Assembly: GCA_919901855.1 (NCBI GenBank) | Contig: CAKKQC010000013.1 | Span: 1-16,575, forward strand | Direction: 5' to 3' | DNA length: 16,575 bases | Origin: a bacterium | Lineage (GTDB): Bacteria; Oederibacteriota; CAKKQC01 | In this document: piece by piece, positions 76 to 16,575 of the stretch | Position numbering within the stretch: the first letter of the stretch is position 1 | Layout: every line of letters begins with the position of its first letter | Position numbers and translations under genes: made by a program | Notes under the pieces: generated by a model | Databases searched by the model: none | What the model was told of the DNA's origin: nothing | Seen by the model: the letters and a program-made list of their open reading frames with translations, nothing else

Positions 76-201
76 GTGGAGAAGACAATTCAGTGGCGGA
101 GCATCGATCGCCCGGAGGCCATCGGCTGGGTTGCCAGTGGAAGATGGATCTTGGCGAAGGACAAGGACTACTTCTATCTGGTGGGACTGAAGATCGACTA
201 G
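76..201 (+). CDS. possible small protein or C-terminal gene remnant (41 codons)
   Basis: After the TAA at 34-36 the same frame is open to TAG at 199-201. The first usual start codon is GTG at 76, which gives 41 residues. The end of the frame looks protein-like, with GRWILAKDKD followed by YFYLVGLKID: alternating charged and aromatic residues unlike the Arg/Ala/Pro-rich shadow frames elsewhere in the window. The stop overlaps the stop of the convergent glycerate kinase gene by four bases (CTAG). No family is recognised. It could be a genuine small gene, the tail of a decayed gene whose front was lost, or chance. Confidence 0.22.
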   Translation: MEKTIQWRSIDRPEAIGWVASGRWILAKDKDYFYLVGLKID

Positions 202-1373
202 GGGACCGTCCCGCGGAGAACCTCTCCTACTCTCTCCTCCAGCAACACCGCCGCGTTCCGCACCGATACACGCTTGCTGATCCCGCGTTCCGTCAGGCCC
301 CAGACGCCGCTGAGGCCCAGGGCCGAAACGGCCCTCGGGGGGAGCATGACGCGGCCGGCGAACGCCCACACGGGGATGCCGGAGCATCCCGCAGCGCCCT
401 TGGCGCTGCCGGGTACGCGCACGCGCCTCGCGTGCGCCGCGACCCGGGCGACGAGCTTGCCCTGGGCCGTCTGCGCGTCGAGCGAGCCCTCGCCCGTCAG
501 AACGAGATCGGCGTGGCGCAGGGCCGCGTCGAGACCGAGGAGCTCGAAGATCGTGTCGGCGCCGGGGACGAGCTTCGCTCCGAGCAACGCGACGAGCCCG
601 GCCCCGAGTCCGCCCGCGGCGCCTCCTCCCGGCAGCCGGGCGACGTCGAGCCCGAGGTCGCGCCGGACGACCCGGGCGAAGTTCGCCAGCGCCCGGTCGA
701 GGAGCCGCATCTGGGAGGGCGTCGCGCCCTTCTGGGCGGTGTAGAGGCGGGCGCCCCGGGGACCGAGCAGGGGACTGCGGACGTCGGTCGCGCCCAGCAC
801 GGTCACTCCGCGGAGCCGGCGCCGCACGGGGGACACGTCGATGCGGGCGAGGCGCAGGAGTCCGAGGCCGCCGGGCTCGATCGGCTTGCCGTCGGCATCC
901 AGGAGCTTCGCCCCAAGCGCCGCCGCCATCCCGGAGCCGGCGTCCACGGTCGCGCTGCCCCCGACGGTGACCACGATCCGGCGGGCGCGGGCGGCGAGGG
1001 CCGCGGCGAAGAGCTCGCCGACGCCGAAGGTCGTCGCGCGCACGGGATCGCGCCGCGCGGGCGGCACGAGCAGGAGCCCGGCGGCCTGCGCCATCTCGAC
1101 GACGGCGGTCCGGCGGGGGAGCAGGAGGAACCGGGCCCGGACGGGGTCGCCCAGCGGTCCCCTCACCCAACGGGCACTCAACCTTCCGCCCGCGTCCGCG
1201 AGCGCGTCGAGCGTTCCTTCGCCGCCGTCGGCGAGCGGCAGGCAGGTCACGCGCGCGTCCGGCCGGGCCGACCGGGCGCCGCGCGCCATGGCGAAGGCCG
1301 CGGCCCGCGCGGACAGACTGCCCTTGAACGAGTCGGGGCAGATCAGAATATGGAAGCGGCGGGGGAGGTTCAG
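198..1373 (-). CDS. glycerate 2-kinase (GlxK/GarK family)
   Basis: This enzyme phosphorylates D-glycerate with ATP to 2-phosphoglycerate in the cytoplasm, feeding glyoxylate, serine or sugar-acid breakdown into glycolysis. Family motifs are clear in order: PDSFKGSLSA near the N-terminus, ADGGEGT, a Gly-rich GGSATVDAGSGMAAALGAK segment, and TGEGSLDAQTAQGK near the C-terminus. About 391 residues from the chosen start matches the usual 380 or so. The start is odd. Family members begin M-K-I-L-I-x-PDSFKG, but here the Met position is TTC and there is no in-frame ATG, GTG or TTG nearby. I used CTG at 1373, which overlaps the stop of the upstream roadblock gene as CTGA, like the NTGA junctions elsewhere in the operon. 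ATT at 1349 is an alternative. It is the last gene of the minus-strand block, so its link to the GTPase genes may be only positional. Confidence 0.88.
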   Translation of the reverse strand: MNLPRRFHILICPDSFKGSLSARAAAFAMARGARSARPDARVTCLPLADGGEGTLDALADAGGRLSARWVRGPLGDPVRARFLLLPRRTAVVEMAQAAGLLLVPPARRDPVRATTFGVGELFAAALAARARRIVVTVGGSATVDAGSGMAAALGAKLLDADGKPIEPGGLGLLRLARIDVSPVRRRLRGVTVLGATDVRSPLLGPRGARLYTAQKGATPSQMRLLDRALANFARVVRRDLGLDVARLPGGGAAGGLGAGLVALLGAKLVPGADTIFELLGLDAALRHADLVLTGEGSLDAQTAQGKLVARVAAHARRVRVPGSAKGAAGCSGIPVWAFAGRVMLPPRAVSALGLSGVWGLTERGISKRVSVRNAAVLLEERVGEVLRGTVP

Positions 1374-1873
1374 CGGAGGACGGTCGGCGAGGCGGACTTG
1401 AGGACTTCCTGGACCAGGGCGTAGGCCGCTTCCGGGTACTCGGCGGGCAGGGTCCCGGGCGGAAGCACGTCCCGCTCGAGGTCGCCGAGGAGCGGATGCA
1501 GGCTGTGCGCGGCCTTGTCGGTGAAGACCTGGATGCGGCCCAGCGACCCGGCGTCCTCGAAGACGACGGCGAGGATGCCGCGTTCGCCGGCGCGCCGGAG
1601 GTAGAAGTGCTTCTTGTCCCCCTCGTGGAAGAGCACGGAGATGTCCTGGTCGCCGAGGTAGCTCGCGAGCTCGTGCGTGACGAGGAAGTTGCAGGTCAGG
1701 AGCGTCGTGAGCTCCGCGGGGTCGTTGCCCGGGATGACGCCCTGCTTGGCGATGAGGGAGCCCGACTCGTCGACCAGGAGGGCGCCCGACGCGCCCGCGC
1801 GCGACACGAGGTCCTGGAGGTGCCGCGCGATCTCGCGCACGGTCTCGGGGGTGGCGAGTAGGTGCCGGGGCAT
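1370..1873 (-). CDS. roadblock/LC7-family protein (MglB-like), 167 aa
   Basis: This is a single-domain roadblock/LC7 protein. The signature is an N-terminal helix (about residues 8-27), then the strand-turn-strand GALLVDESGSLIAKQG, a helix around LTTLLTCNFLVTHELA, and two strands containing ISVLFHEG and FYLRRAG, ending with ILAVVFED. Roadblock proteins dimerise and bind small GTPases; MglB in Myxococcus is the GTPase-activating partner of MglA. An mglA gene lies upstream on the same strand, and a second roadblock protein is encoded between them, so a regulatory or scaffold role is likely. The specific partner is inference. The C-terminal 40 residues or so form a helical extension. The start ATG lies 6 bases after the stop of the membrane-protein gene, and the stop overlaps the kinase. 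Confidence 0.85.
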   Translation of the reverse strand: MPRHLLATPETVREIARHLQDLVSRAGASGALLVDESGSLIAKQGVIPGNDPAELTTLLTCNFLVTHELASYLGDQDISVLFHEGDKKHFYLRRAGERGILAVVFEDAGSLGRIQVFTDKAAHSLHPLLGDLERDVLPPGTLPAEYPEAAYALVQEVLKSASPTVLR

Positions 1874-1879
1874 GACGGT

Positions 1880-2224
1880 CTAGTCTCCCATACCGTGGTA
1901 GTAGAGCCAACCCGCCACGGCGCTGAGGGCTCCGCAGGTCGTGAGGCACACGAGCGAGTACGTGCGAAGCCGCATGCTCTCGACGTACATCCCGGGGTCG
2001 GACGGGATCAGGGGCGTGAGCTGGACGGCCGCGAAGAGGTGGAGGCCGGCGGCGGCCACGAGCAGGATCGATCCCGCGAGCGGCAGGACCCAGAGTCGCC
2101 GGTGGCCGATGAGCGCCAGCAGGCTCCGGAGCACAAGCGCGTAGAGCACGAAGGCGACGGCCAAAAGGAGCAGGGCCGCCTCGTACCAGAGGACCTCGGG
2201 GGGGACCGTGTGGAGCCAGCTCAC
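1880..2224 (-). CDS. small integral membrane protein, three predicted helices (114 aa)
   Basis: No family is recognised. The protein has three hydrophobic stretches: about residues 11-38 (after VLWYE), 44-65 (LWVLPLAGSILLV) and 88-110 (YSLVCLTTCGALSAVAG). A short basic loop, GHRR, lies between the first two, which suggests that this loop is cytoplasmic. I chose GTG at 2224 because upstream of it the frame lies under the 3' end of the preceding membrane-protein gene and reads as Cys/Arg-rich shadow sequence. This leaves a 13-base gap after that gene. It sits in the tightly packed mglA operon immediately before the single-domain roadblock gene. Together with its upstream neighbour it could form a membrane anchor or sensor for the GTPase module; that role is inference. 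Confidence 0.7.
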   Translation of the reverse strand: MSWLHTVPPEVLWYEAALLLLAVAFVLYALVLRSLLALIGHRRLWVLPLAGSILLVAAAGLHLFAAVQLTPLIPSDPGMYVESMRLRTYSLVCLTTCGALSAVAGWLYYHGMGD

Positions 2225-2237
2225 GATGGGGTCTCGT

Positions 2238-2618
2238 TCATGGCATCCGGTCCTGGCGCGCCCGGCGCAGGGCGAGCCGCAACAGGAGCATCCACGTGGC
2301 CGCACAGGCGTAGAGCGATCCGGCGGCGGAGACGAAGAGGGCCCCGTAGGCGATTCCCCGCTCGACCTTGAGCCCGGGCACGGCCACGCCCGCGGTCCCC
2401 GCCGACGCGAGGGTGTAGACCGTGTAGAGGAGGATGCCCGAGGGCGCCCAGAGCAGGAGCCGCCAGCCGGTCGGGGTCTCGAACGCGCGCTCGAGCCGGC
2501 GGGCGATGAGGCCGAGGAAGAAGAACGACACCCAGAGCAGTACGCCGCCCAGGACGGCCACGTAGTTCGTGAGCACGACGTAGAAGAGGTAGTCCGAGGT
2601 GGTCAGCAGTTTCGCCAT
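2238..2618 (-). CDS. small integral membrane protein, three predicted helices (126 aa)
   Basis: No family is recognised. Hydrophobic segments lie at about residues 11-40 (YVAVLGGVLLWVSFFFLG), 52-71 (LLLWAPSGILLYTVYTL) and 88-113 (ending WMLLLRLALRR). Basic loops ARRLER after the first helix and RLALRRARQDR at the C-terminus suggest N-terminus out and C-terminus in by the positive-inside rule. The start ATG is 3 bases after the stop of the DUF4388-like gene. The next gene is a second membrane protein of similar size and helix number, so the pair may be distant paralogues or subunits of one complex. The conserved packing with mglA and two roadblock genes suggests a membrane partner of the GTPase switch. 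Confidence 0.75.
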   Translation of the reverse strand: MAKLLTTSDYLFYVVLTNYVAVLGGVLLWVSFFFLGLIARRLERAFETPTGWRLLLWAPSGILLYTVYTLASAGTAGVAVPGLKVERGIAYGALFVSAAGSLYACAATWMLLLRLALRRARQDRMP

Positions 2619-2621
2619 GGC

Positions 2622-3467
2622 CTAGAGCCCCACGTCGATCAGGCGGCCCACCGCGGACCGCATGACCGTGCCCAGCTCGCCCGCCCGCCGGGCGCCGATG
2701 AGCAGGCGGCACCGGGCGCGTAGGCCGTCGGCGAGCGCGTAAAACCCGCCCTTGCGCAGGTGCCCGGGCTCCCCGAGGTCCTGCCGGCGGACCTCGAGGT
2801 CGAAGAGGTAGTCCCCGAACCCGGGGACGAACTGCTCGACCGACCGGCGCAGGGTCTCGTAGAGCTCGAGGCGCTGTACATCCAGGTCCACGGTCCGGAG
2901 CGTGTCGGCGTCCGGGCACTCCCAGATCTCGCAGCGCTCCGCCCCGGCCTCCCACGGCTCCACCGGCGCGACCCAGCGGTCGGTGTCCGGCCACCACGCG
3001 CCCACGATCGCGCCGTCCGCGGCGAAGACGTGCAGGGGCCCCTCGGGCGCGTCGATGATGGCCGCGCCCGTCACCTTGCGCTCCTGGAAGACGGCCTCGA
3101 GCGCCGCGGGGTCCGCGGGGACCTTGTCGGTCTTGAGAATTCGCACCGTGCCGTGGTGGAACGCGAGCAGGGCCCGCAGGAGGTCGTAGTCGAGCCGGCA
3201 GATCTCGAGGAAGGCCCGGTGCTTCTCCAGCCAGGCGAGGAGTTCGACCAGGGCGTCGAAGCCCTTCGTGAGCTTCTCGTTGCGCTCGAGGACGGGCGCG
3301 ATGAGCTCGCCGTCGCGCAGGAACAGCACGGCCTCCGCCTCTTCCGCGACCATGCGCACGTAACCCGTGTGCGCCTCCCGGTGGAGGCTCTGGAGCACGC
3401 CGTCGAAGCGCACGTACGTGGTATCGAGGTTCCGTTGGAGGGCCTTGCCGCGGGGGAGACGAATCAT
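2622..3467 (-). CDS. DUF4388/PATAN-like protein of unknown function (281 aa)
   Basis: No firm family assignment. The first 60 residues or so follow the pattern of DUF4388/PATAN-like domains: a short start, then FDGVLQSLHREAHTGYVRM, an alternating stretch, and AVLFLRDGELIAPVLE, that is a helix, a TG-turn and a strand ending in a display-type DGEL. Such domains often accompany MglA, roadblock and response-regulator proteins in delta-proteobacteria-like genomes (established association, recalled rather than searched). The middle contains an alpha/beta region with TGAAIIDAPEGPLHVF, and the C-terminal third is mixed helix and strand. No membrane segment or signal peptide is visible, so it is probably cytoplasmic. 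Its ATG overlaps the stop of the roadblock-fusion gene by four bases (ATGA), implying coupled translation and a shared function. Confidence 0.75.
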   Translation of the reverse strand: MIRLPRGKALQRNLDTTYVRFDGVLQSLHREAHTGYVRMVAEEAEAVLFLRDGELIAPVLERNEKLTKGFDALVELLAWLEKHRAFLEICRLDYDLLRALLAFHHGTVRILKTDKVPADPAALEAVFQERKVTGAAIIDAPEGPLHVFAADGAIVGAWWPDTDRWVAPVEPWEAGAERCEIWECPDADTLRTVDLDVQRLELYETLRRSVEQFVPGFGDYLFDLEVRRQDLGEPGHLRKGGFYALADGLRARCRLLIGARRAGELGTVMRSAVGRLIDVGL

Positions 3468-4807
3468 GCACGTCCTCCATCGGAGGACGTGGGTCCTCCT
3501 TCCGCCGCGGCCGTGCTTTCCGACGGACCGGCCGGGGCTGACCGCTTCCGGCTCGTGGACCGCCGCAGGGCCTGGGCGAAGAGGTACCCGAGCGCGGGTT
3601 TGAGGCCCGGCGGCAGGGAGTCATCGGTGCGTGCGGCCAGGCCCGTCCGCCACCGCTCCACGAGTGCGTCACCCGCGGCGCGCCCGAGCAGCTTGTCGGT
3701 GACCCAGAGCCGGTTGAGCAGGAGGTCGAGGAAGGCCCGCGCCACCGCCTGCCGCCGCCGGTCCTTGGGCCAGCTCCGCAGGGCCGCGAGCCCGTCGTCG
3801 GGCAGGTGCCCGGCAACCGCCCGGCCGAGCACGTCCGGGTGACGGTCGACGGAATCCCGGTCCACGTTTCCGAGGATGGAGGCCGTGCGTTCCCCGAACA
3901 CGTCCGCGAACGGAGCTGCCGACTGGTCGACGAGCTGGTGCCAGATCTGGACCGACACGAGGTCCTCGTCCTCGACCTTCCGTTCGGCGATGACGCCCTC
4001 GTACGCCGCCATCAGGATCCTCTCGACGTCGGCCAGGAGCTTGCGGGTCTCGGCGGCCTCGCCGGCCGAGATCGTGGTCGCCACGCGCCCGATCAGGTCG
4101 CGGGCTTCGCGCCAGGCTTTGGCCGCCGACGTCGGGACGCCGGCCTTGACGCAGTCTTCGGCGAGCGTCTTGATCCGCCAGAACTTGCGGATCAGGTCCG
4201 CGGGAGGATTCTTGACCAGCTTCGAGGGCGCGGCGGCCGCGGGCGCTTTCGGGGAGGCGGCCGGCTTGCCGGTGGCGGGGGAAGCCGGGGCTGGGGTCTG
4301 GCCGGCCCGTTCGGCCTCCGCCGGGGTCGCCGGCGTCGCCGGCGCGTCCTCGACCGTGGCCTGCAGCACGTCGGGCCCGACCACGGCGCGTGGGCACTCG
4401 TCCAGCGTGTGGCGCAGGTCGGCCTGCACCTGGCGCACGAGTACGCGGACCGGTCCCAGCCCCTGCGCCTGGTCGAACAGGACGACGAGCAGGGACTCCT
4501 CGCCGACGGCCTGGAGGTAGACGTTGAGTTCGCGCTCCCGCTGGAAGACGAGCGAGAATTCTTTCTCTCCGACCCGGTGGGCGAGAGCCCGAGTGGTAGC
4601 GAAATCCCCCGCGGCGAGGGCGGCCACGGTCGCGAGCTCGAGGTGCCCGAGCCCGCCGGCGCCCGCGATGATCTTGCCGGCCGTGTCGATCAGGAGGACG
4701 CAGGCCACACCCTCCTTCGCCGTGAGCGTCTCCAGGGTGTGCTGGAACGCGGCCTGCTGCTCCGGGCCGATGAGCAGGTTGACGTTGCCGTCGGAGAGTT
4801 CGATCAT
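3464..4807 (-). CDS. roadblock/LC7 domain protein with helical C-terminal extension (447 aa)
   Basis: Residues about 15-130 form a roadblock/LC7 (MglB-like) domain: CVLLIDTAGKIIAGAG, a central helix region around LATVAALAAGD, and FSLVFQRE and LLVVLFDQ strands. Residues about 150-205 are an Ala/Pro-rich linker (for example PATPATPAEAE). Residues about 205-420 are helix-rich and unrecognised, followed by a disordered Ser/Arg/Gly-rich tail. Free MglB proteins are about 160 residues, so this is a fusion nearly three times the usual length. Its ATG overlaps the mglA stop by four bases, the closest possible coupling, which makes it the prime candidate for the GTPase-activating or GTPase-binding partner of MglA. 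Cytoplasmic; no membrane segment is seen. What the helical part does is unknown. Confidence 0.85.
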   Translation of the reverse strand: MIELSDGNVNLLIGPEQQAAFQHTLETLTAKEGVACVLLIDTAGKIIAGAGGLGHLELATVAALAAGDFATTRALAHRVGEKEFSLVFQRERELNVYLQAVGEESLLVVLFDQAQGLGPVRVLVRQVQADLRHTLDECPRAVVGPDVLQATVEDAPATPATPAEAERAGQTPAPASPATGKPAASPKAPAAAAPSKLVKNPPADLIRKFWRIKTLAEDCVKAGVPTSAAKAWREARDLIGRVATTISAGEAAETRKLLADVERILMAAYEGVIAERKVEDEDLVSVQIWHQLVDQSAAPFADVFGERTASILGNVDRDSVDRHPDVLGRAVAGHLPDDGLAALRSWPKDRRRQAVARAFLDLLLNRLWVTDKLLGRAAGDALVERWRTGLAARTDDSLPPGLKPALGYLFAQALRRSTSRKRSAPAGPSESTAAAEGGPTSSDGGRA

Positions 4808-5409
4808 GGCGTGGCTCCCGCGCCCGAACCCTCGGCCAGCCGCCGGACCGCGAGCCCGGCGGCGGTGCGCAGGGTGTCCATGACGCCGATTCCGTGCCGC
4901 GCGATGGCCTCGTGCGACGGGGCTTCGTGCGGGTTGAACCGCTTCTGGAGGATCTCGATGGGCATCCGGTCCTTGAGGTCGCGCTTGTTGAACTGGACGA
5001 CGAGAGGGATCTCCGCGGGGTCCAGCCCGATCTCCCGCAGGTCGTTCGCGATCAGGAGCTGGCTTTGTTCGTTGTCCGTCAGCCGGGCTTCCTGGGAATC
5101 CACGACGAAGACGAGGACGTCCAGACCCTTGAGGATCAGCTTGCGGCTCGCGCCGTAGTAGACCTGACCGGGCACGGTGTAGAGGTGCAGGCGCGTCGAC
5201 CAGCCTGCCGCGCTCCCGAGCATGACGGGGAGGAAGTCGAAGAACATCGTCCGTTCCGTCGCGGTGTCGAGCGTCAGGATTTCCCCGTGCCGCTCCGCGG
5301 GCAGGGTATCGGCGATGACCCGAAGATTCGTGGTCTTGCCGCCGAGACCGGGCCCGTGGTACGCGATCTTGAGGACGACCTCGCGAGTGAGTTTGTTGGC
5401 AAAGGCCAT
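4804..5409 (-). CDS. mglA: MglA-type small Ras-like GTPase
   Basis: A prokaryotic Ras-superfamily GTPase of 201 residues, close to the 195 of Myxococcus MglA. Visible motifs are the P-loop GPGLGGKTTN at residues 19-28, ERTMFFDFLP in the switch-1 region, LYTVPGQVYY as switch 2 (the MglA-type TVPGQ in place of DTAGQ), ASRKLILKG, FVVDSQ, and the guanine-specificity motif NKRD. In characterised systems MglA-GTP marks a cell pole and recruits motility or polarity machinery, and MglB resets it. Here the next gene, overlapping by four bases, is a roadblock protein, and a second roadblock gene follows further down. It probably cycles between cytoplasm and membrane; no lipidation site is visible. A TACGAT box 8 bases before the ATG may be its own promoter. 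Cellular role is inference. Confidence 0.93.
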   Translation of the reverse strand: MAFANKLTREVVLKIAYHGPGLGGKTTNLRVIADTLPAERHGEILTLDTATERTMFFDFLPVMLGSAAGWSTRLHLYTVPGQVYYGASRKLILKGLDVLVFVVDSQEARLTDNEQSQLLIANDLREIGLDPAEIPLVVQFNKRDLKDRMPIEILQKRFNPHEAPSHEAIARHGIGVMDTLRTAAGLAVRRLAEGSGAGATP

Positions 5410-5465: not shown

Positions 5466-6008
5466 TTACCAGCGCAGGGGTTGCTGGGTTTCGGCCTCGA
5501 TGCGGGTCTTGGCCTTCTGGAGCTTGAGGGCGGACTCGTCCGCCAGCCGGCGGGTCTCCGGCGCGTTCCCGGACGCGAGCGCCCCGCGCGCCTGGTCCAG
5601 CAGTCCTTCGATCGCGGCGATGTCGTCCTTCACGAGCAACTGATACCCCGTCCCCTTGAGCCGGCCGAGCATGAGTTCGGCCTTCCGCACCTGTATCCCG
5701 GCCTTCGCCAGGTCGGAATCGGTCGAGATCGTCGACGACGCGGCCGCCACGGGCACGGCCGCCGTGGCGCCCACCTTCCTCGGCGCGGCGGTCTCCTCCG
5801 GAAGTTCCCAGCCTTCCGGGAACCCGTCCCGGCGCATGGCCGGCTTCGGGGGGGATTCGAACGCCTGGTCGATCGGTACATCGCGTCCTCCGGCCGTGGC
5901 GCCGAAGCCGCTCCGGACCGCGGACCGGCCCGCGCAACCGCCCAGCATGGCGCCGGCGGCGATCGCGAGGATCAGCGGGCGGGCCGGGCGGGTCGACCGG
6001 AACGGCAT
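5466..6008 (-). CDS. lipoprotein of unknown function (180 aa)
   Basis: A basic N-terminus and hydrophobic stretch (LILAIAAGAML) are followed by the lipobox LGGC with Cys25, so the protein should be exported, lipidated and anchored in a membrane. The mature N-terminal half is low in complexity (Gly/Pro/Ala). The C-terminal 80 residues or so are charged and helix-forming (LLDQARGALASGN, RRLADESALKLQKAKTRIEAE), perhaps a coiled coil. ATG at 6008 was chosen because it gives the lipoprotein signal directly; an adjacent GTG codon precedes it. It follows the DnaK-like gene by 32 bases and is probably co-transcribed with it. No family is recognised, and its relation to the downstream MglA genes is unclear. 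Confidence 0.78.
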   Translation of the reverse strand: MPFRSTRPARPLILAIAAGAMLGGCAGRSAVRSGFGATAGGRDVPIDQAFESPPKPAMRRDGFPEGWELPEETAAPRKVGATAAVPVAAASSTISTDSDLAKAGIQVRKAELMLGRLKGTGYQLLVKDDIAAIEGLLDQARGALASGNAPETRRLADESALKLQKAKTRIEAETQQPLRW

Positions 6009-6040: not shown

Positions 6041-7627
6041 CTAGGACGCTGGCGGGCCGGACGGGGCGCTGGCGACGGAGCCGCCGGGCGCGCGGGCTTC
6101 CTTCGCGAGGCGGTCCACCATGTCGCGGTCCAGCCCCGTCGAGGGCTTGATGACGATGGCCTGTTTCTGCCCGGTTTCCTTGTCCTTGGCCGTGACGCGC
6201 AGGAGGCCGTCCGCGTTGATCTCGAAGGTCACCTCGATGCGCGGCTTGCCCGCGGCCTGGGGCTTGACCCCGACGAGCTCGAACTCGCCCAGCGGATGGT
6301 TCTGCGACGCCTTCGGCTGCTCGCCCTGGAAGATGCCGATGCGCACGAACGTCTGGCCATCCTCCGTGGTCGTGAAGGTCTCGCTCCGCCGGATCGGGAT
6401 CGTCGTGTTCCGCTCGATCAGGACCTTGAACCCGTCGCCGACCGTGCGCAGGCCCAGGGAGAGAGGCGTGACGTCGAGGAGGAGGACCTCCGCGATCTCG
6501 CCGCCCATGATCGAGCCCTGGAGCGCGGCACCCGCGGCGACCACCTCGTCCGGGTTCGCGCGCACGTACGGGTCCTTGCCGAAGATCTCCTTGACCTTCG
6601 CCACGACGCGGGGCATCCGGGTCATCCCGCCGACGAGGACTATGGCGTCGACGTCCCGCGCCTGGACCCGAGCGGCCTCCAGCGCCTTGCGGCACGGGTC
6701 CTCGGTCTTGTCGACGAGGTCCTTGGTCATCGCCTCGAACTGCTCGCGCGTGAGCGAGGCTTCGAGCGACTTGTCCATGTGGATGAAGGGCAGGGCGATC
6801 GACGCGGAGTTCGCGCTCGAGAGCTCGATCTTCGCGGCCTCGGAGGCCTCCTTGAGGCGCTGCATGGCCTTGGGCTCGGCGTGCAGGTCCACGCCCTCGT
6901 TCTTCTTGAACTCGTCGATCAGCCACGACAGGATCCGCATGTCGAAGTCGTCTCCGCCGAGGTACGTGTTCCCGCTCGTCGCCTTCACCTCGAAGATGCC
7001 CTTGGCGAGCTCGAGCAGGGAGACGTCGAAGGTCCCGCCGCCCAGGTCGTAGACCGCGATGAGCATGTCCTGCTTGCCCCCGAGTCCGGAGGCGAGCGAC
7101 GCCGCGGTCGGCTCGTTGATGATCCGGACCACGTCCAGCCCGGCGATCGCGCCCGCGTCCTTCGTCGCCTGCCGCTGGGAGTCGTTGAAGTAGGCCGGCA
7201 CGGTCACGATGGCCTTCTCGATTGGTCCGCCCAGGTAGTGCTCGGCGTCGGCCTTGAGCTTCTTGAGGATCATGGCCGAGACCTCGGGGGGCGAGACGAG
7301 GGTGCCGCGGAGCTTGACCCGCACGTCGCCGTGCTGGGGGTCGGCGGCGAGTCCGTAGGGCAGGAGGTACTTGAGGGAGTCGATCTCGGGCTCGGAGAAC
7401 TTGCGGCCCATGAGCCGCTTCACCGAATAGATGGTCTCGGCGGGGTTTATGATGGCCTGCCGCTTCGCGGGCAGGCCGACGAGGACTTCGCCGTTGTCCT
7501 TGTAGGCGACGACCGACGGCGTGGTGCGTCCGCCTTCGCGGTTGGGGATCACGTTGGACAGCGAGCCCTCCGCGACCGCCATGCACGAGTTGGTCGTCCC
7601 GAGGTCGATTCCGAGTGTTTTGGGCAT
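6041..7627 (-). CDS. dnaK: DnaK/Hsp70-family chaperone lacking the C-terminal lid
   Basis: The ATPase domain is complete: phosphate-1 loop GIDLGTTNSC at residues 6-15, INEPTAASLA, phosphate-2 DLGGGTFDVS near 193-204, and adenosine motif VLVGGMTRMPRV near 325. The interdomain linker LLLDVTPLSLG lies near 378-388. A beta-sandwich substrate domain follows (ERNTTIPIRRS, GEFELVGV, VTFEINADGLLRVTAKD). The protein then stops shortly after the first lid helix (GLDRDMVDRLAKEAR), with a Gly/Ser/Pro tail, at 528 residues against about 610-640 for DnaK. Only 32 bases separate it from the next gene, so the lid is absent rather than frameshifted. No dnaJ or grpE is adjacent. A paralogue with a specialised client is more likely than the housekeeping DnaK. 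GGGAAG lies 8 bases before the ATG. Confidence 0.92.
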   Translation of the reverse strand: MPKTLGIDLGTTNSCMAVAEGSLSNVIPNREGGRTTPSVVAYKDNGEVLVGLPAKRQAIINPAETIYSVKRLMGRKFSEPEIDSLKYLLPYGLAADPQHGDVRVKLRGTLVSPPEVSAMILKKLKADAEHYLGGPIEKAIVTVPAYFNDSQRQATKDAGAIAGLDVVRIINEPTAASLASGLGGKQDMLIAVYDLGGGTFDVSLLELAKGIFEVKATSGNTYLGGDDFDMRILSWLIDEFKKNEGVDLHAEPKAMQRLKEASEAAKIELSSANSASIALPFIHMDKSLEASLTREQFEAMTKDLVDKTEDPCRKALEAARVQARDVDAIVLVGGMTRMPRVVAKVKEIFGKDPYVRANPDEVVAAGAALQGSIMGGEIAEVLLLDVTPLSLGLRTVGDGFKVLIERNTTIPIRRSETFTTTEDGQTFVRIGIFQGEQPKASQNHPLGEFELVGVKPQAAGKPRIEVTFEINADGLLRVTAKDKETGQKQAIVIKPSTGLDRDMVDRLAKEARAPGGSVASAPSGPPAS

Positions 7628-11918: not shown

Positions 11919-12848
11919 ATGGGACGCACGGCGGAGACGAACCGGACCAGCGAGCACGAGGCTTCCTCCCGCCACGTCACGCGCCGCGCGACCGTGCCGG
12001 CGCTGGAAGCCGTCCTCGGCCGGGCGTTCCCAGTCCTGGACCACGGGTTCGTCCGCGTCGTCGACTACCTCGGCGACGACGCCGCGATCGTGCAGGCGGC
12101 GCGCGTTTCCTACGGCCGGGGCACGAAATCGGTCTCGAACGACCGGGGCCTCATCCGCTACCTCCTGCGACACGCGCACACGACGCCCTTCGAGATGTGC
12201 GAGATCAAGTTCCACGTGAAATTGCCGATATTCGTGGCCCGGCAGTGGGTCCGGCACCGGACGGCGTCCGTGAACGAGATGTCGGGACGGTACAGCATCT
12301 TGGATCGCGAGTTCTATTCGCCCCAACCGGCTGTGCTCGGCGTGCAGGACGCGTCGGCCCGGCAAGGCCGCGGGAAAGCGCTGCCGGGCCCCCAAGCGCG
12401 ACGCATCCTCTCCATATTGAAACGGGATGCCACCACCGCGTACGCGCATTACGGCGAATTCCTCGGCCCGCGCGGGACGGAGCAACCGCTGGCCAGGGAA
12501 CTCGCGCGAATCGGGCTGCCTGTCAGCTTCTACACCCAGTGGTACTGGAAGATCGACCTGCATAATCTCCTGCATTTCATCGCCCTGCGGCTCACCGGCC
12601 ACGCGCAATTCGAGATTCGCGCGTACGCCCAGGCCATGGCCGCGATCGTCAAGCGCTGGGTCCCGCTGGCGTGGGAAGCGTTTGACGACTACCGGATGAG
12701 CGCGGTCAGGCTTTCGCGCGTCGAGGCCGGCGTCGTGCGCGCCCTGTTGCGCGGCGGGGACGCGCGGGCGCTCGCCGCGCAGCTCTCGGCGCGCGAGCGA
12801 GATGAGCTGGCCGCGGCGCTGGGGATTGACCTGAACCGGCTCGCGTGA
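11919..12848 (+). CDS. thyX: flavin-dependent thymidylate synthase ThyX
   Basis: Makes dTMP from dUMP using methylene-tetrahydrofolate and FAD/NADPH, replacing ThyA. The ThyX signature RHRxxSxNExSxR is present as RHRTASVNEMSGR at 112-124. Other features are VLDHGFVRVVDYLGDD, ARVSYGRGTKSVSNDRGLIRYL, RHAHTTPFEMCEIKFHVKLP, and the C-terminal QWYWKIDLHNLLHFIALR with EIRAYAQAM. At 309 residues it is the long form common in alpha-proteobacteria and relatives, not the 220-residue form of Thermotoga. The first 35 residues or so are poorly conserved and polar, so the true start could be a little downstream, although the upstream TAGAAT box fits ATG 11919. The rpmH promoter lies over its last codons and stop. 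Confidence 0.96.
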   Translation: MGRTAETNRTSEHEASSRHVTRRATVPALEAVLGRAFPVLDHGFVRVVDYLGDDAAIVQAARVSYGRGTKSVSNDRGLIRYLLRHAHTTPFEMCEIKFHVKLPIFVARQWVRHRTASVNEMSGRYSILDREFYSPQPAVLGVQDASARQGRGKALPGPQARRILSILKRDATTAYAHYGEFLGPRGTEQPLARELARIGLPVSFYTQWYWKIDLHNLLHFIALRLTGHAQFEIRAYAQAMAAIVKRWVPLAWEAFDDYRMSAVRLSRVEAGVVRALLRGGDARALAAQLSARERDELAAALGIDLNRLA

Positions 12849-12856
12849 GGTACAAT
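12826..12856 (+). promoter_or_regulatory. sigma-70-like promoter of the rpmH operon
   Basis: TTGACC (12826-12831) and TACAAT (12851-12856) match housekeeping -35 and -10 hexamers, five of six each. The spacer is 19 bases, slightly long, and a G directly before TACAAT recalls the GG seen before other -10 boxes here. The -35 lies inside the end of thyX. It would give a leader of about 55 bases before rpmH. Confidence 0.55.
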
Positions 12857-12918
12857 GAAAGGCGTTGTAGGCTCCGGCTCTAGGAGCAGTAGAAGTCAGC
12901 AGTCGTAGGAGTGTTGAC
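12857..12918 (+). other. 5' leader of rpmH with a small hairpin and ribosome-binding site
   Basis: The leader holds a possible hairpin, GCTCC (12871-12875) with GGAGC (12883-12887) around a 7-base loop, and a good Shine-Dalgarno sequence AGGAG (12907-12911) seven bases before the GTG start. It is not a tRNA or a riboswitch that I recognise. Confidence 0.35.
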
Positions 12919-13074
12919 GTGCCCAAACGAACGTTCCAGCCACATGTGATTCCCCGCAAGCGAACCCACGGGTTCCTCACACGCATGAGCTCTCCCGGCG
13001 GACGGCGCACGCTCGCGCGTCGCCGGGCCAAGGGTCGCTGGCGCATCGGCGTCGCCGGACGGCGGCACGAGTGA
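12919..13074 (+). CDS. rpmH: 50S ribosomal protein L34
   Basis: A short basic protein of 51 residues from a GTG start. [18 protein letters not shown] and [13 protein letters not shown] align along the whole length with E. coli L34 (46 residues). There is one extra residue at the start and a short basic C-terminal extension (AGRRHE). L34 binds 23S rRNA in the large subunit. AGGAG seven bases upstream decides the GTG start. The stop overlaps the next gene's GTG as GTGA, the conserved rpmH-rnpA linkage. Confidence 0.96.
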
Positions 13075-13541
13075 CGGCGCGAGGGATTCCGAAGGACGGA
13101 GTCAAGACGGCCGCGAGCCGCCGGAACGGCGGCAACGGCCACGATCGAAAGAACGGAGACGGGGCGGTATTGGCCAACGCGAAGACCCAGGGATTCCCCA
13201 GCGGCGATCATCTGGCCGGGATGGACTTCCTGCGTGTCATGGCGAAAGGCGAGAAGAAATCCTGCCCGTCGTTCCATCTCTATTTCATGCCCGCCGACGA
13301 GTTCCAGGCGGGCGTCTGTGTGTCGCGCCGGCTCGGCGGTGCGGTCGTGCGTAACCGGATCAAGCGTGTTCTGCGCGAGGCGATTCGCATGACGCGGAGC
13401 GATCTGTGCAAGCCCTGTCACCTGGTCCTGGTGGCGCGGCTGGGCGCGGACCGGCTCGATTTGGAGCAGGCGCAGAGCTCGTTGACCGAGCTGTACACGT
13501 CGGCCCGCCTGCTGGCGATCGAAACCACGGTGATGTCGTGA
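13071..13541 (+). CDS. rnpA: ribonuclease P protein component
   Basis: The protein subunit that helps the RNase P RNA cut tRNA 5' leaders. The family signature [13 protein letters not shown] is intact, preceded by [13 protein letters not shown], and upstream [11 protein letters not shown] matches the usual helix DFxxVxxxG. The length from GTG 13071 is 156 residues against 110-130 normally. The first 33 residues or so ([24 protein letters not shown]) are an extra Lys/Arg/Gly-rich segment. TTG at 13170 would give a normal 123-residue protein, but the GTGA overlap with rpmH favours the long form through translational coupling. Which start is used is undecided. The end overlaps yidD as GTGA. Confidence 0.9.
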
Positions 13542-13807
13542 GTGCGGACTGCGCCGTCGAGGGGCGCGTCGTGAAGGGGATTCTTTTCCTGCTGACCTCC
13601 GGGTTGCTGACGGCGCTGCGCGGCTACCGCCGCTGGATCTCGCCGATGCTCGGAAGTCACTGCCGGTTCTACCCCTCCTGTTCGGCCTACGCCGAGGAAG
13701 CGGTGGTCCTGCATGGGCTGCTGCGCGGCGTCGGGCTTGGCGTGTGGCGGCTCATGCGCTGCCATCCGTTTCATCCGGGAGGCGTCGACCCGGTGCCCCT
13801 TCGCTAG
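13538..13807 (+). CDS. yidD: membrane protein insertion efficiency factor YidD
   Basis: A small protein of 89 residues that assists YidC and SecYEG at the inner membrane. Family landmarks are [20 protein letters not shown], where the CRFYPSCS cysteines are characteristic, then [11 protein letters not shown], and the C-terminal [14 protein letters not shown]. The N-terminal hydrophobic segment [11 protein letters not shown] is amphipathic or membrane-associated. GTG at 13538 overlaps the rnpA stop (GTGA). GTG at 13571 would give 78 residues, nearer the average, and remains possible. It lies in the standard order rnpA-yidD-yidC. Confidence 0.93.
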
Positions 13808-13844
13808 CCCCCCCGAAGCGCTGACGCGCGATACCAGGACCTCG

Positions 13845-13851
13845 AAGGAGG
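13845..13851 (+). promoter_or_regulatory. ribosome-binding site of yidC (AAGGAGG)
   Basis: A perfect Shine-Dalgarno sequence ends directly against the ATG at 13852, which is too close for normal use. It lies 9 bases before an in-frame CTG at 13861, a normal spacing. It therefore raises the question of which codon starts yidC. Confidence 0.55.
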
Positions 13852-15654
13852 ATGGGTCAACTGAGCACTGAACAGCGCCTGTTGCTGGCGATCGTCCTGT
13901 CGACCGTCATCATCATCGGCTACTCATTCCTGGCGCCACGGCTCCTGCCTCAGCCGGCGATGCCCGCCGCCACGGCCGAAACGGGCGCCGCCGTCTCGCC
14001 TTCCGCGGAACCGTCGCGCGCCCCTGCGGCACCCTTGTCCGCCAAGGAGCGGCGGCGCGCCGAGCGGGCCGCGCTCGCGGCGGTTTCGGCTGCCCGCACC
14101 ACTGTCCGGTCGCCCAAGGCCGGAGTGGCCTCCGACGCCACCGGTTCCGAGGTCGAGGTCGCCACCGGCGCCGTCCACGCGAGATTCTCCACGAACGGGG
14201 GCCGTGTGCTCAGCTGGCAGCTCAAGGCCTACCGCGCGACGGGCTCTACTCTCTACGAGGAGCTCGTGAGCCTCCGGGCCGCGAAGTCCGCCGCCGGGCC
14301 GCTCTCGGTCCGGCTGTCCGACTTCCCCGATGCCGCCGCCTGGCCCGCGGTCGCCTCCCTCGCGAAGCTCGATGTCGGGAAGGCGGGCATCGAGCAGCGC
14401 CTCCCGGGCCGGGGGGGGGAGACCGTCGTGATTCCGCGTGGCCCCGCGGGGGTTCCGGCCGGCGAACTCGTCTTCACCCAGGCGCTGCCCGGCGGCCGGA
14501 CGCTGGTCAAGCGCCTGCGGTTCCCGGCCACCGGGTACGAGGTCGGGGTCGAACTGGAGCTGACGGGGCCGGCACCGGAGACGCTGGACCTGGTCTGGAC
14601 GCCCGGGGTGGGGCTGGCACCAGACGAGGAAGAGGCCCTCGGACGGACCTCGACCTACCAGAACGACGCCACCGCGATCATCCTGTCGGGGCAGGGCCTG
14701 GCCTCGGGCAAGCAGGATCTCCTCAAGCAATCGGACGCGAAGAAGCCGGCGGAGAAGTCCGGGGAGGCGCCCTTCTGGGCCGCGGTGCGCAACCGGTACT
14801 TCGTCGCCGCCCTCGTCCCACCGAGGATCGGCGATTGCGAGGGCGTCCTGGCCGTGACCGGTATCGCGGCGTCGGACGGACAGCCGCACGCCCTGACGGC
14901 CGCCCTCCGGTTCTCGCTCCAGCCCGGGGCGCGCCGGGTGCGCATCCCCGTGACCGCGTACCTTGGGCCGCAGGAGTTCGGAGCCCTGGGGGCGGCCGGT
15001 TCCCGGCTCGACCGCGTGCTCGATCTCGGGTGGTTCGGCTGGATCGCGCTTCCGATGCTCCAGACCCTCAAGTTCCTGGCGAAGTTCACGCGGAACTACG
15101 GGGTGGCGATCATCCTCCTCACCCTCATCGTGCGGGGTCTCCTGTGGTGGCCGAGCCAGTGGGGTCTGAACCAGATGAAGCGCATGCAGCAGGTCAAGCC
15201 GCAGATGGACTTCATCAACACGCAGTTCAAGAATGACCCGGCGCGCAAACAGGAGGAGCTCATGCGCCTCTACAAGGAGCAGAAGATCAATCCCGTGGGC
15301 GGCTGCCTGCCCCTGCTGCTCCAGATCCCCATCTTCTTCGCGTTGTACTCGGCGCTGAGCAGCGCCGTGGAGTTGCACGGTACGCCGTTCGCATTCTGGA
15401 TCCAGGACCTCTCGGCGATGGATCCGTATTACATCCTGCCGGTGCTCGTCGGCGGGACGATGTTCATCCAGCAAGCCATCACGCCCGTCGTCGGTGATCC
15501 GGCGCAGGCGAAGATGATGCGGTGGATGTCGGTCGTGTTCGCTTTCATGTTCATGAAGATGCCGTCCGGGCTGATGCTCTACTGGCTGGTCCAGAACCTG
15601 TTCCAGATCGTCCAGCAGTGGCGCACCAATCGAATGACCGCCCAGACGGCCTGA
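13852..15654 (+). CDS. yidC: membrane protein insertase YidC
   Basis: Inserts and folds inner-membrane proteins, alone or with SecYEG. At 600 residues it is the Gram-negative long form. It has an N-terminal helix (LLLAIVLSTVIIIGY), an Ala/Ser-rich linker, and a periplasmic beta-super-sandwich domain to about residue 370. The conserved core follows from about 395: YGVAIILLTLIVRGLLWWP with the groove arginine near 428, MKRMQQVKPQMDFIN, NPVGGCLPLLLQIPIFFALY, and the last helices near 525-590 (MKMPSGLMLYWLVQN). The chosen start is ATG, but AAGGAGG directly touches it; CTG four codons on is better spaced. The difference is only three residues. It follows yidD by 44 bases. Confidence 0.96.
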   Translation: MGQLSTEQRLLLAIVLSTVIIIGYSFLAPRLLPQPAMPAATAETGAAVSPSAEPSRAPAAPLSAKERRRAERAALAAVSAARTTVRSPKAGVASDATGSEVEVATGAVHARFSTNGGRVLSWQLKAYRATGSTLYEELVSLRAAKSAAGPLSVRLSDFPDAAAWPAVASLAKLDVGKAGIEQRLPGRGGETVVIPRGPAGVPAGELVFTQALPGGRTLVKRLRFPATGYEVGVELELTGPAPETLDLVWTPGVGLAPDEEEALGRTSTYQNDATAIILSGQGLASGKQDLLKQSDAKKPAEKSGEAPFWAAVRNRYFVAALVPPRIGDCEGVLAVTGIAASDGQPHALTAALRFSLQPGARRVRIPVTAYLGPQEFGALGAAGSRLDRVLDLGWFGWIALPMLQTLKFLAKFTRNYGVAIILLTLIVRGLLWWPSQWGLNQMKRMQQVKPQMDFINTQFKNDPARKQEELMRLYKEQKINPVGGCLPLLLQIPIFFALYSALSSAVELHGTPFAFWIQDLSAMDPYYILPVLVGGTMFIQQAITPVVGDPAQAKMMRWMSVVFAFMFMKMPSGLMLYWLVQNLFQIVQQWRTNRMTAQTA

Positions 15655-15660
15655 CTTAAA

Positions 15661-15665
15661 GGAGG
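15661..15665 (+). promoter_or_regulatory. ribosome-binding site of khpB/jag (GGAGG)
   Basis: GGAGG in the 19-base gap after yidC lies 8 bases before ATG 15674 and fixes that ATG as the start of the next gene. Confidence 0.7.
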
Positions 15666-15673
15666 CACCAGCG

Positions 15674-16575
15674 ATGGATCGGATCGAGATGGAAGGTGAA
15701 ACGGTCGAAGAGGCGGTGGACGCCGCGCTTCGTGAGATGGGGCGGAGCCGGGAGGACGTCGATATCGAGGTCCTCGTCGAAGGCAGCCGCGGGCTGTTCG
15801 GGCTCGGTAAGAAGGCGGCGAAGGTCGTCGTGAAGCTCAAGGAGGGCGGGCTCCTGCCGCCGGACGCGGTCGAGCGCGCGACGAAGTTCCTGATCGAGGT
15901 AGTTCGGCGGATGGGGATGGACGTCGAGGTCGAGGCCAAGCAGATCGGCAACGAGCTCTACCTCGAGGTCGACCAGGGCGCCGGCGGGATCCTGATCGGG
16001 CGGCACGGCACGACCCTGGCCGCGCTCTCGTACCTGATGGAGCGCATCGTGAGCCACAGCGAGGACGCGAACGTCAAGGTCTTCGTGGACGTGGCCGGGT
16101 ACCTCGAGCGGCGGCGCCGGACGCTGGTCACATTGGCGCACGAGACGGCCGACCAGGTGAAGGCGTCGGGCCAGCCGGTCGAGCTGGACGCCATGTCGGC
16201 CTTCGAGCGCAAGGTCGTCCACACGACCCTGCACGACGATGCCACAGTGCGCACGTTCAGCCGGGGTGAGGGCGAGGAGCGCCGGGTCGTGATCGTCCCG
16301 GCGAGCACGCCAGTGAGCGACGAGGAGCGCGACGGCGGCCGGGGCGAGCGCGGTGGCCGGGGTGGCCGCTGGGGCGGCGGCGGACGCGGCGGACGCGGCC
16401 GGGGCGATCGTCAGGATCGCGGCGCGCCGCGCGACAGTGATCGCGGCGGTCGAGACGACCGCGGGGGCGACCCCGTGGCGGTCGGGCCCGAGGGGGTGCG
16501 GGACCCCGGGCCGCTGGAGGATGCCGGCGGCGGCGGGTATGGCGGCGGCGGACGCGGCGGGGACGGCGGCGGGCG
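15674..16575 (+). CDS. khpB: RNA-binding protein KhpB/Jag with RGG-rich tail (3' end outside window)
   Basis: Reading from ATG 15674 there is no stop to the window edge (300 codons). Residues 1-56 are a Jag_N domain (ending GSRGLFGLGKKAAKVVV). Residues about 64-140 are a KH domain with the RNA-binding loop GRHG at 109-112. Residues about 145-209 are an R3H domain with R179 and H183 (ERKVVH). Known KhpB/Jag proteins pair with KhpA as RNA chaperones that affect cell elongation and division, and the gene normally follows yidC, as here. From about residue 216 the protein is unlike typical Jag: an Arg/Gly/Asp-rich low-complexity tail with RGG-type repeats (GRGGRWGGGGRGGRGRG), continuing past the edge. 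The usual length is about 200-260 residues, so this one is longer. Confidence 0.9.
   Translation, partial: MDRIEMEGETVEEAVDAALREMGRSREDVDIEVLVEGSRGLFGLGKKAAKVVVKLKEGGLLPPDAVERATKFLIEVVRRMGMDVEVEAKQIGNELYLEVDQGAGGILIGRHGTTLAALSYLMERIVSHSEDANVKVFVDVAGYLERRRRTLVTLAHETADQVKASGQPVELDAMSAFERKVVHTTLHDDATVRTFSRGEGEERRVVIVPASTPVSDEERDGGRGERGGRGGRWGGGGRGGRGRGDRQDRGAPRDSDRGGRDDRGGDPVAVGPEGVRDPGPLEDAGGGGYGGGGRGGDGGG
16373..16560 (+). repeat. direct repeats encoding the RGG tail of KhpB
   Basis: The 20-base unit GGCGGCGGCGGACGCGGCGG occurs at 16373-16392 and again at 16541-16560 in the same reading frame, each coding Gly-Gly-Gly-Gly-Arg-Gly-Gly. The stretch between is also GGC/CGC-rich. This suggests tail growth by repeat expansion. 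Such sequence is prone to slippage and assembly error. Confidence 0.6.

Follow-up and report, generated by a model that had tools for sequence, protein, structure and literature searches.

A six-gene MglA locus as one of two apparently old copies of a candidate membrane-tethered signalling unit

The partners of most bacterial Ras-like GTPases beyond a few model systems are unknown, and the locus described here raises the question of whether an MglA GTPase that is encoded tightly beside two roadblock proteins, a DUF4388 protein and two small membrane proteins works with all of them as one dedicated unit. The window that was analysed (16,575 nucleotides) is the entire contig C13 of a genome of 4.68 Mb in 91 contigs (called 'G000'). 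The gene context offers a candidate connection for the GTPase, namely a conserved membrane pair and a domain that was seen, among the loci examined, only directly upstream of that pair.

Genes and layout of the locus

The six genes lie on the minus strand in the order MglA, RblL, D4388, MP1, MP2 and RblS. MglA/RblL and RblL/D4388 overlap by 4 bases, and D4388/MP1, MP1/MP2 and MP2/RblS are separated by gaps of 3, 13 and 6 bases, respectively. A first-pass annotation had reported six minus-strand genes joined by 4-base overlaps or gaps of 3 to 13 bases, and all six open reading frames were found as it had given them; the gene identities were likewise recovered, as MglA, two proteins matching Robl_LC7, one matching DUF4388, and two three-helix membrane proteins. 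The transcription unit may reach beyond the six genes, since the genes for a predicted lipoprotein (5466..6008, minus strand; weakly DUF4398-like, with a Pfam match below the cut-off), a DnaK-like protein of 528 amino acids (6041..7627, minus strand; HSP70 match) and, on the other side, a glycerate kinase (198-1343, minus strand) share the strand and are separated by short gaps. The lipoprotein and DnaK genes are possible upstream members, and the order DnaK, lipoprotein, MglA was also kept in a relative from the same family (G001). The HSP70 match of the window DnaK ends at profile position 515 of 599, and a second DnaK of the genome, on contig C1, is full length and longer. Further along the window (11919-16573, plus strand), translations read by eye indicated a ThyX-like gene followed by an rnpA-yidD-yidC-jag-like cluster.

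MglA (201 amino acids; 4804..5409, minus strand) is a Ras-like GTPase whose best relatives among PDB sequences were themselves MglA proteins, matched over nearly the full length (5ymx, E 5e-57; 3t12, E 4e-54). Its motifs are canonical (P-loop, Arg53, Thr54, Gln82 and NKRD), and the arginine finger Arg53, Thr54 and the switch-2 residue Gln82, which have been linked to switching and hydrolysis in MglA (PMC6876712), were conserved in an alignment of 15 MglA proteins. RblS (167 amino acids; 1370..1873, minus strand) is an MglB-like roadblock protein, scoring 41.4 bits against Robl_LC7 (cut-off 23) and matching MglB among PDB sequences (E 1e-14), while RblL (447 amino acids; 3464..4807, minus strand) consists of an N-terminal roadblock domain (4475-4741; Robl_LC7 29.0 bits) and a long helical region that was modelled poorly (pLDDT 50). 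Both proteins stayed below the cut-off of 200 of the NCBIfam MglB equivalog NF052242 (72.5 for RblS and 58.4 for RblL). Two further MglA genes of the genome, on contigs C33 (L055 6838-9072) and C10 (L056 7828-9592), are fused to a roadblock domain and are each followed by another roadblock gene, without genes for MP-type membrane proteins.

D4388 (281 amino acids; 2622..3467, minus strand) passed the Pfam DUF4388 cut-off marginally (25.6 bits relative to 25). Its AlphaFold2 model (mean pLDDT 82) comprised two PATAN-like alpha/beta segments and a C-terminal domain of four helices, hereafter called the adaptor domain (residues 189-281; 2625..2903, minus strand). Searches with the D4388 model by Foldseek and VIA-align gave no informative match.

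MP1 (126 amino acids; 2238..2618, minus strand) and MP2 (114 amino acids, GTG start; 1880..2224, minus strand) were characterised by family searches, alignments and hydropathy, the last of which indicated three helices in each. The charges of the loops suggested for both an N-out/C-in topology with a cytoplasmic TM1-TM2 loop. Neither window protein matched any Pfam or NCBIfam family, and their relatives gave only weak, scattered matches in Pfam, NCBIfam and PDB sequences, so that both are treated here as orphan families, which may nevertheless have remote relatives among the known ones. Paralogy between MP1 and MP2 received an hhalign probability of 22%, and some MP2 proteins from outside the phylum also matched the MP1 profile.

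A second copy and the history of the locus

A second set of the six genes was found in the same genome on contig C42, in the order D4388, MP1, MP2, MglA, RblS and RblL. The proteins of the two sets share an identity of 0.50 for MglA and 0.29-0.36 for the other five, which indicates that the duplication is old; the C42 copy of D4388 had no match to Pfam DUF4388, although it is homologous to the C13 copy. In G001 the C42-type set is complete, and the C13-type set runs to a contig end after DnaK, lipoprotein, MglA and RblL, so that the complete MglA-linked set was seen in two genomes of one family, with the C13-type copy of G001 truncated. Comparison of G000 and G001 gave dN/dS values of about 0.10-0.28 for all six C42-type genes, as expected under purifying selection. 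The reordered recurrence of the set on contig C42, together with the low dN/dS, argues that the grouping of the six genes is more than chance.

Trees of MP1 and MP2 agreed on the main groups (CheY-type, large-D4388 type, MglA-type and outside type), and the C13 and C42 copies grouped together in both; branches were long, so that neither the deep branching order nor the position of the window copy is certain, and the adaptor tree was too poorly resolved to contribute. The best explanation of these sequence comparisons is that the locus represents one of two old duplicates of a putative membrane-tethered MglA signalling unit. The window lipoprotein and an otherwise unrelated-looking protein encoded beside the C42 set (L054 4623-5780, plus strand) have a similar helical C-terminal stretch (PLRW and PIRW, respectively), but the similarity, with an E-value of 0.004 from one comparison, was considered too slight to be relied on.

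The membrane pair and the domain encoded upstream of it

Within the phylum (FCPU426/Goldbacteria), MP1 was found in 20 of the 45 genomes examined, at 27 loci, all of which had MP2 adjoining it. D4388 preceded MP1 at 25 of these loci, and at the other two MP1 was located at a contig end. An mglA gene was present at three of the loci and absent from 24; a CheY-like gene followed MP2 at 13 of the latter, and a histidine kinase with a response regulator at two, leaving nine with neither, several of which were interrupted by contig ends. Only three of the 45 genomes (G000, G001 and G008) contained mglA, and the G008 locus was without MP genes. A second type of DUF4388-MP1-MP2 locus was noticed in the phylum (L062, L066-L068, L070 and L072), in which D4388 is roughly 440-570 amino acids long and has a big insertion within the DUF4388 domain; by eye the insertion resembles the N-terminal domain of pilus ATPases, without confirmation by Pfam.

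Outside the phylum, MP1 was detected with strong E-values in seven of about 340 sampled genomes (an eighth match, weak and full of stop codons, was ignored). No additional lineages with MP1 emerged from another broad sample of 386 genomes, which overlapped with the earlier one, and this marks MP1 as a rare family. It was present in all genomes examined of three small phyla (10/10, 4/4 and 1/1) and in one of two genomes of a fourth. MP2 adjoined MP1 at 16 of 16 outside loci, and thus at all 43 MP1 loci when both sets are taken together. Of six outside loci with roadblock genes that were viewed at length, five had the gene order lipoate-ligase-like gene, DUF4388, roadblock A, roadblock B, MP1 and MP2, and the sixth was cut by a contig end. 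Roadblock A matched Robl_LC7 weakly (18.4 bits relative to the cut-off of 23) and roadblock B had no Pfam match, so that the roadblock nature of both rests on weak similarity and on reading of the sequences. All 15 outside genomes compared contained mglA, always on a contig other than that of MP1. Since the outside roadblock genes are kept with MP1-MP2 without an adjacent mglA, the link between roadblock and membrane proteins may predate the cis link to MglA; and since these loci carry roadblock-like proteins and their genomes encode MglA, the GTPase link may have come first and the receiver later, an order that is not established. Genes for membrane or periplasmic proteins precede the lipoate-ligase-like gene at L135 and L138-L140, approximately 1.5-5 kb upstream of DUF4388; by eye they look alike between these loci and may be part of a larger unit.

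A profile of D4388 proteins matched the C-terminus of roadblock B of the other phyla (E 2e-8 to 2e-10), and hhalign gave 97.8% for the common C-terminal domain of the two. With a joint profile of this adaptor domain, searched against the 3795 ORFs of all extended loci, 32 of 32 matches (including one locus recorded twice, as L083 and L095) immediately preceded MP1 in the same orientation, and no other DUF4388 or roadblock gene among these ORFs carried the domain. The joint profile was trained on these same proteins, and the informative results are therefore the absence of other matches and the independent match between D4388 and roadblock B. In one genome (G284) MP1-MP2 is not preceded by an adaptor gene, and a search for a helical domain shared by RblL and the adaptor found none. 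On the simplest interpretation, the adaptor domain would dock the upstream protein on MP1-MP2, and the N-terminal part of that protein would meet a variable switch.

As far as gene order across these loci indicates, the invariant unit does not comprise the whole operon and consists of a soluble protein that ends in the adaptor domain, followed by MP1 and MP2. This bears on the first-pass annotation, which had read the operon as a self-contained, membrane-linked GTPase switch differing from the simple mglBA pair. The difference from mglBA stands, as G000 has all six components twice and G001 has one complete set, and no described MglA system found in the literature included MP1, MP2 or the adaptor domain. 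A self-contained unit dedicated to MglA was not supported, in view both of the 24 phylum loci without mglA and, when neighbourhoods were checked outside the phylum, of the separation of mglA and MP1 onto different contigs. The locus probably does encode a membrane-linked GTPase unit, but not one that is self-contained or MglA-specific; the constant part is the adaptor protein with MP1 and MP2. This three-protein membrane module is previously undescribed, and its gene neighbours suggest a plug-and-play signalling platform with a lineage-dependent switch.

Comparison with known systems and possible function

The locus resembles the MglA-MglB system of Myxococcus xanthus (with RomR/RomX and RomY) in its conserved MglA catalytic residues, an MglB-like protein and more than one regulator, but differs in combining two roadblock genes, a DUF4388/adaptor protein and two membrane proteins in one operon, in which no RomR, RomX or RomY was identified. 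The proximity of PATAN (DUF4388) proteins to mglA and mglB has been reported (Makarova 2006; PMC4316618) and is found again here, with PATAN beside MglA and roadblock genes, whereas the available text of that report describes neither the adaptor domain at the C-terminus nor the two orphan membrane proteins. The cyanobacterial PATAN-CheY regulators PixG, PixE and LsiR (PMC7690835) are comparable in that FCPU426/Goldbacteria also encode PATAN and a CheY-like receiver close together, but as separate proteins with MP1-MP2 between them, and the window's family has MglA instead of the receiver. Conservons, the actinobacterial G protein systems CvnA-D, are similar in that their operons bring a small GTPase together with a membrane protein and a roadblock protein of the MglB type. 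The membrane component of the window differs in not being a histidine kinase; no kinase family of Pfam or NCBIfam was matched by any of the six proteins, and MP1 and MP2 are unrelated to conservon proteins by the searches made. In eukaryotes, membrane-anchored roadblock complexes act on small GTPases, as in Ragulator-Rag. That likeness is one of logic only, the membrane anchor of the window being different; a Rag GEF activity of Ragulator has been mentioned (PMC9481161).

The presence of the adaptor protein with MP1-MP2 but without mglA at most loci, and of MglA and roadblock genes without that module on contigs C33 and C10, would fit an MglA/roadblock system standing beside an unrelated adaptor-MP1-MP2 module, the two being co-transcribed with no biochemical link. 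Such independence is considered unlikely, given that all six genes are kept in both copies despite the changed order, that roadblock proteins adjoin MP1-MP2 in other phyla too, and that the adaptor domain is there fused to a roadblock-like protein. With a similarly small probability, MP1 and MP2 could be no signalling platform but a transporter, a channel or a redox unit whose activity the soluble proteins gate. Polar residues within predicted helices of MP2 (Tyr14, Glu15 and His62) are kept within the phylum, His62 in nearly all relatives, and the MP1 and MP2 profiles found a single match in the PDB, between MP2 and a cytochrome b subunit, at chance level (E 0.75). Glu15 is not kept outside the phylum, however, His62 is lost in one member, each protein has just three helices, and no transporter or cytochrome family was matched above cut-off.

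A canonical MglA, an MglB-like roadblock protein and type IV pilus genes on another contig of the genome would also fit an MglA polarity module of the usual kind, the membrane and DUF4388 proteins being dispensable lineage-specific extras. This reading appears very improbable, as the membrane pair and the adaptor have been kept together across several phyla, are under purifying selection and have no counterpart in the literature descriptions of the Myxococcus polarity module that were found. A defence role was also considered, and PADLOC gave no match.

The reading preferred here, to which about an even chance is given, is a membrane-tethered MglA unit in which MP1 and MP2 would assemble into a hetero-oligomer that serves as an inner-membrane platform, D4388 would be docked on the cytoplasmic face of this platform by the adaptor domain, and the PATAN part of D4388 would read the switch. 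In the window's family that switch would be MglA, turned off by RblS as an MglB-type GAP, and RblL would act as a further scaffold or regulator of the roadblock kind; in many relatives within the phylum, the partner of the platform appears instead to be a CheY-like receiver or a histidine kinase together with a response regulator. As for the direction of the signal, the membrane pair acting as input is slightly favoured over MglA-GTP driving the membrane pair. More tentatively, with somewhat less than an even chance, the adaptor protein with MP1 and MP2 could be a new bacterial membrane signalling platform of several small phyla, on which a two-component receiver and a Ras-like GTPase with its roadblock regulators have replaced one another as the controlling switch. 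The occurrence of the same module with either kind of partner makes the exchangeability of GTPase and phospho-receiver as inputs testable, and three unnamed families (MP1, MP2 and the adaptor) gain a common context in FCPU426/Goldbacteria and several other phyla.

The likeliest output would be spatial or activity control of an envelope machine, for which type IV pili are the leading candidate, and pilus control is plausible. An envelope machine was proposed because PATAN proteins have been reported near mglA and mglB (PMC4316618), because PATAN-CheY regulators have been linked to the motor of type IV pili (PMC7690835), and because pilus-type genes are present in the genome, among them two T2SSE-type ATPases, PilC-, PilD- and PilM-like proteins and a secretin in a cluster on contig C6. 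The six-gene operon contains no pilus gene, and the earlier statement that no motility gene is near holds within the window but not for the genome, in view of the type IV pilus genes on C6. A few kilobases past that pilus cluster (L057 5990-8036), C6 also encodes a TPR-roadblock protein and one single-domain roadblock protein.
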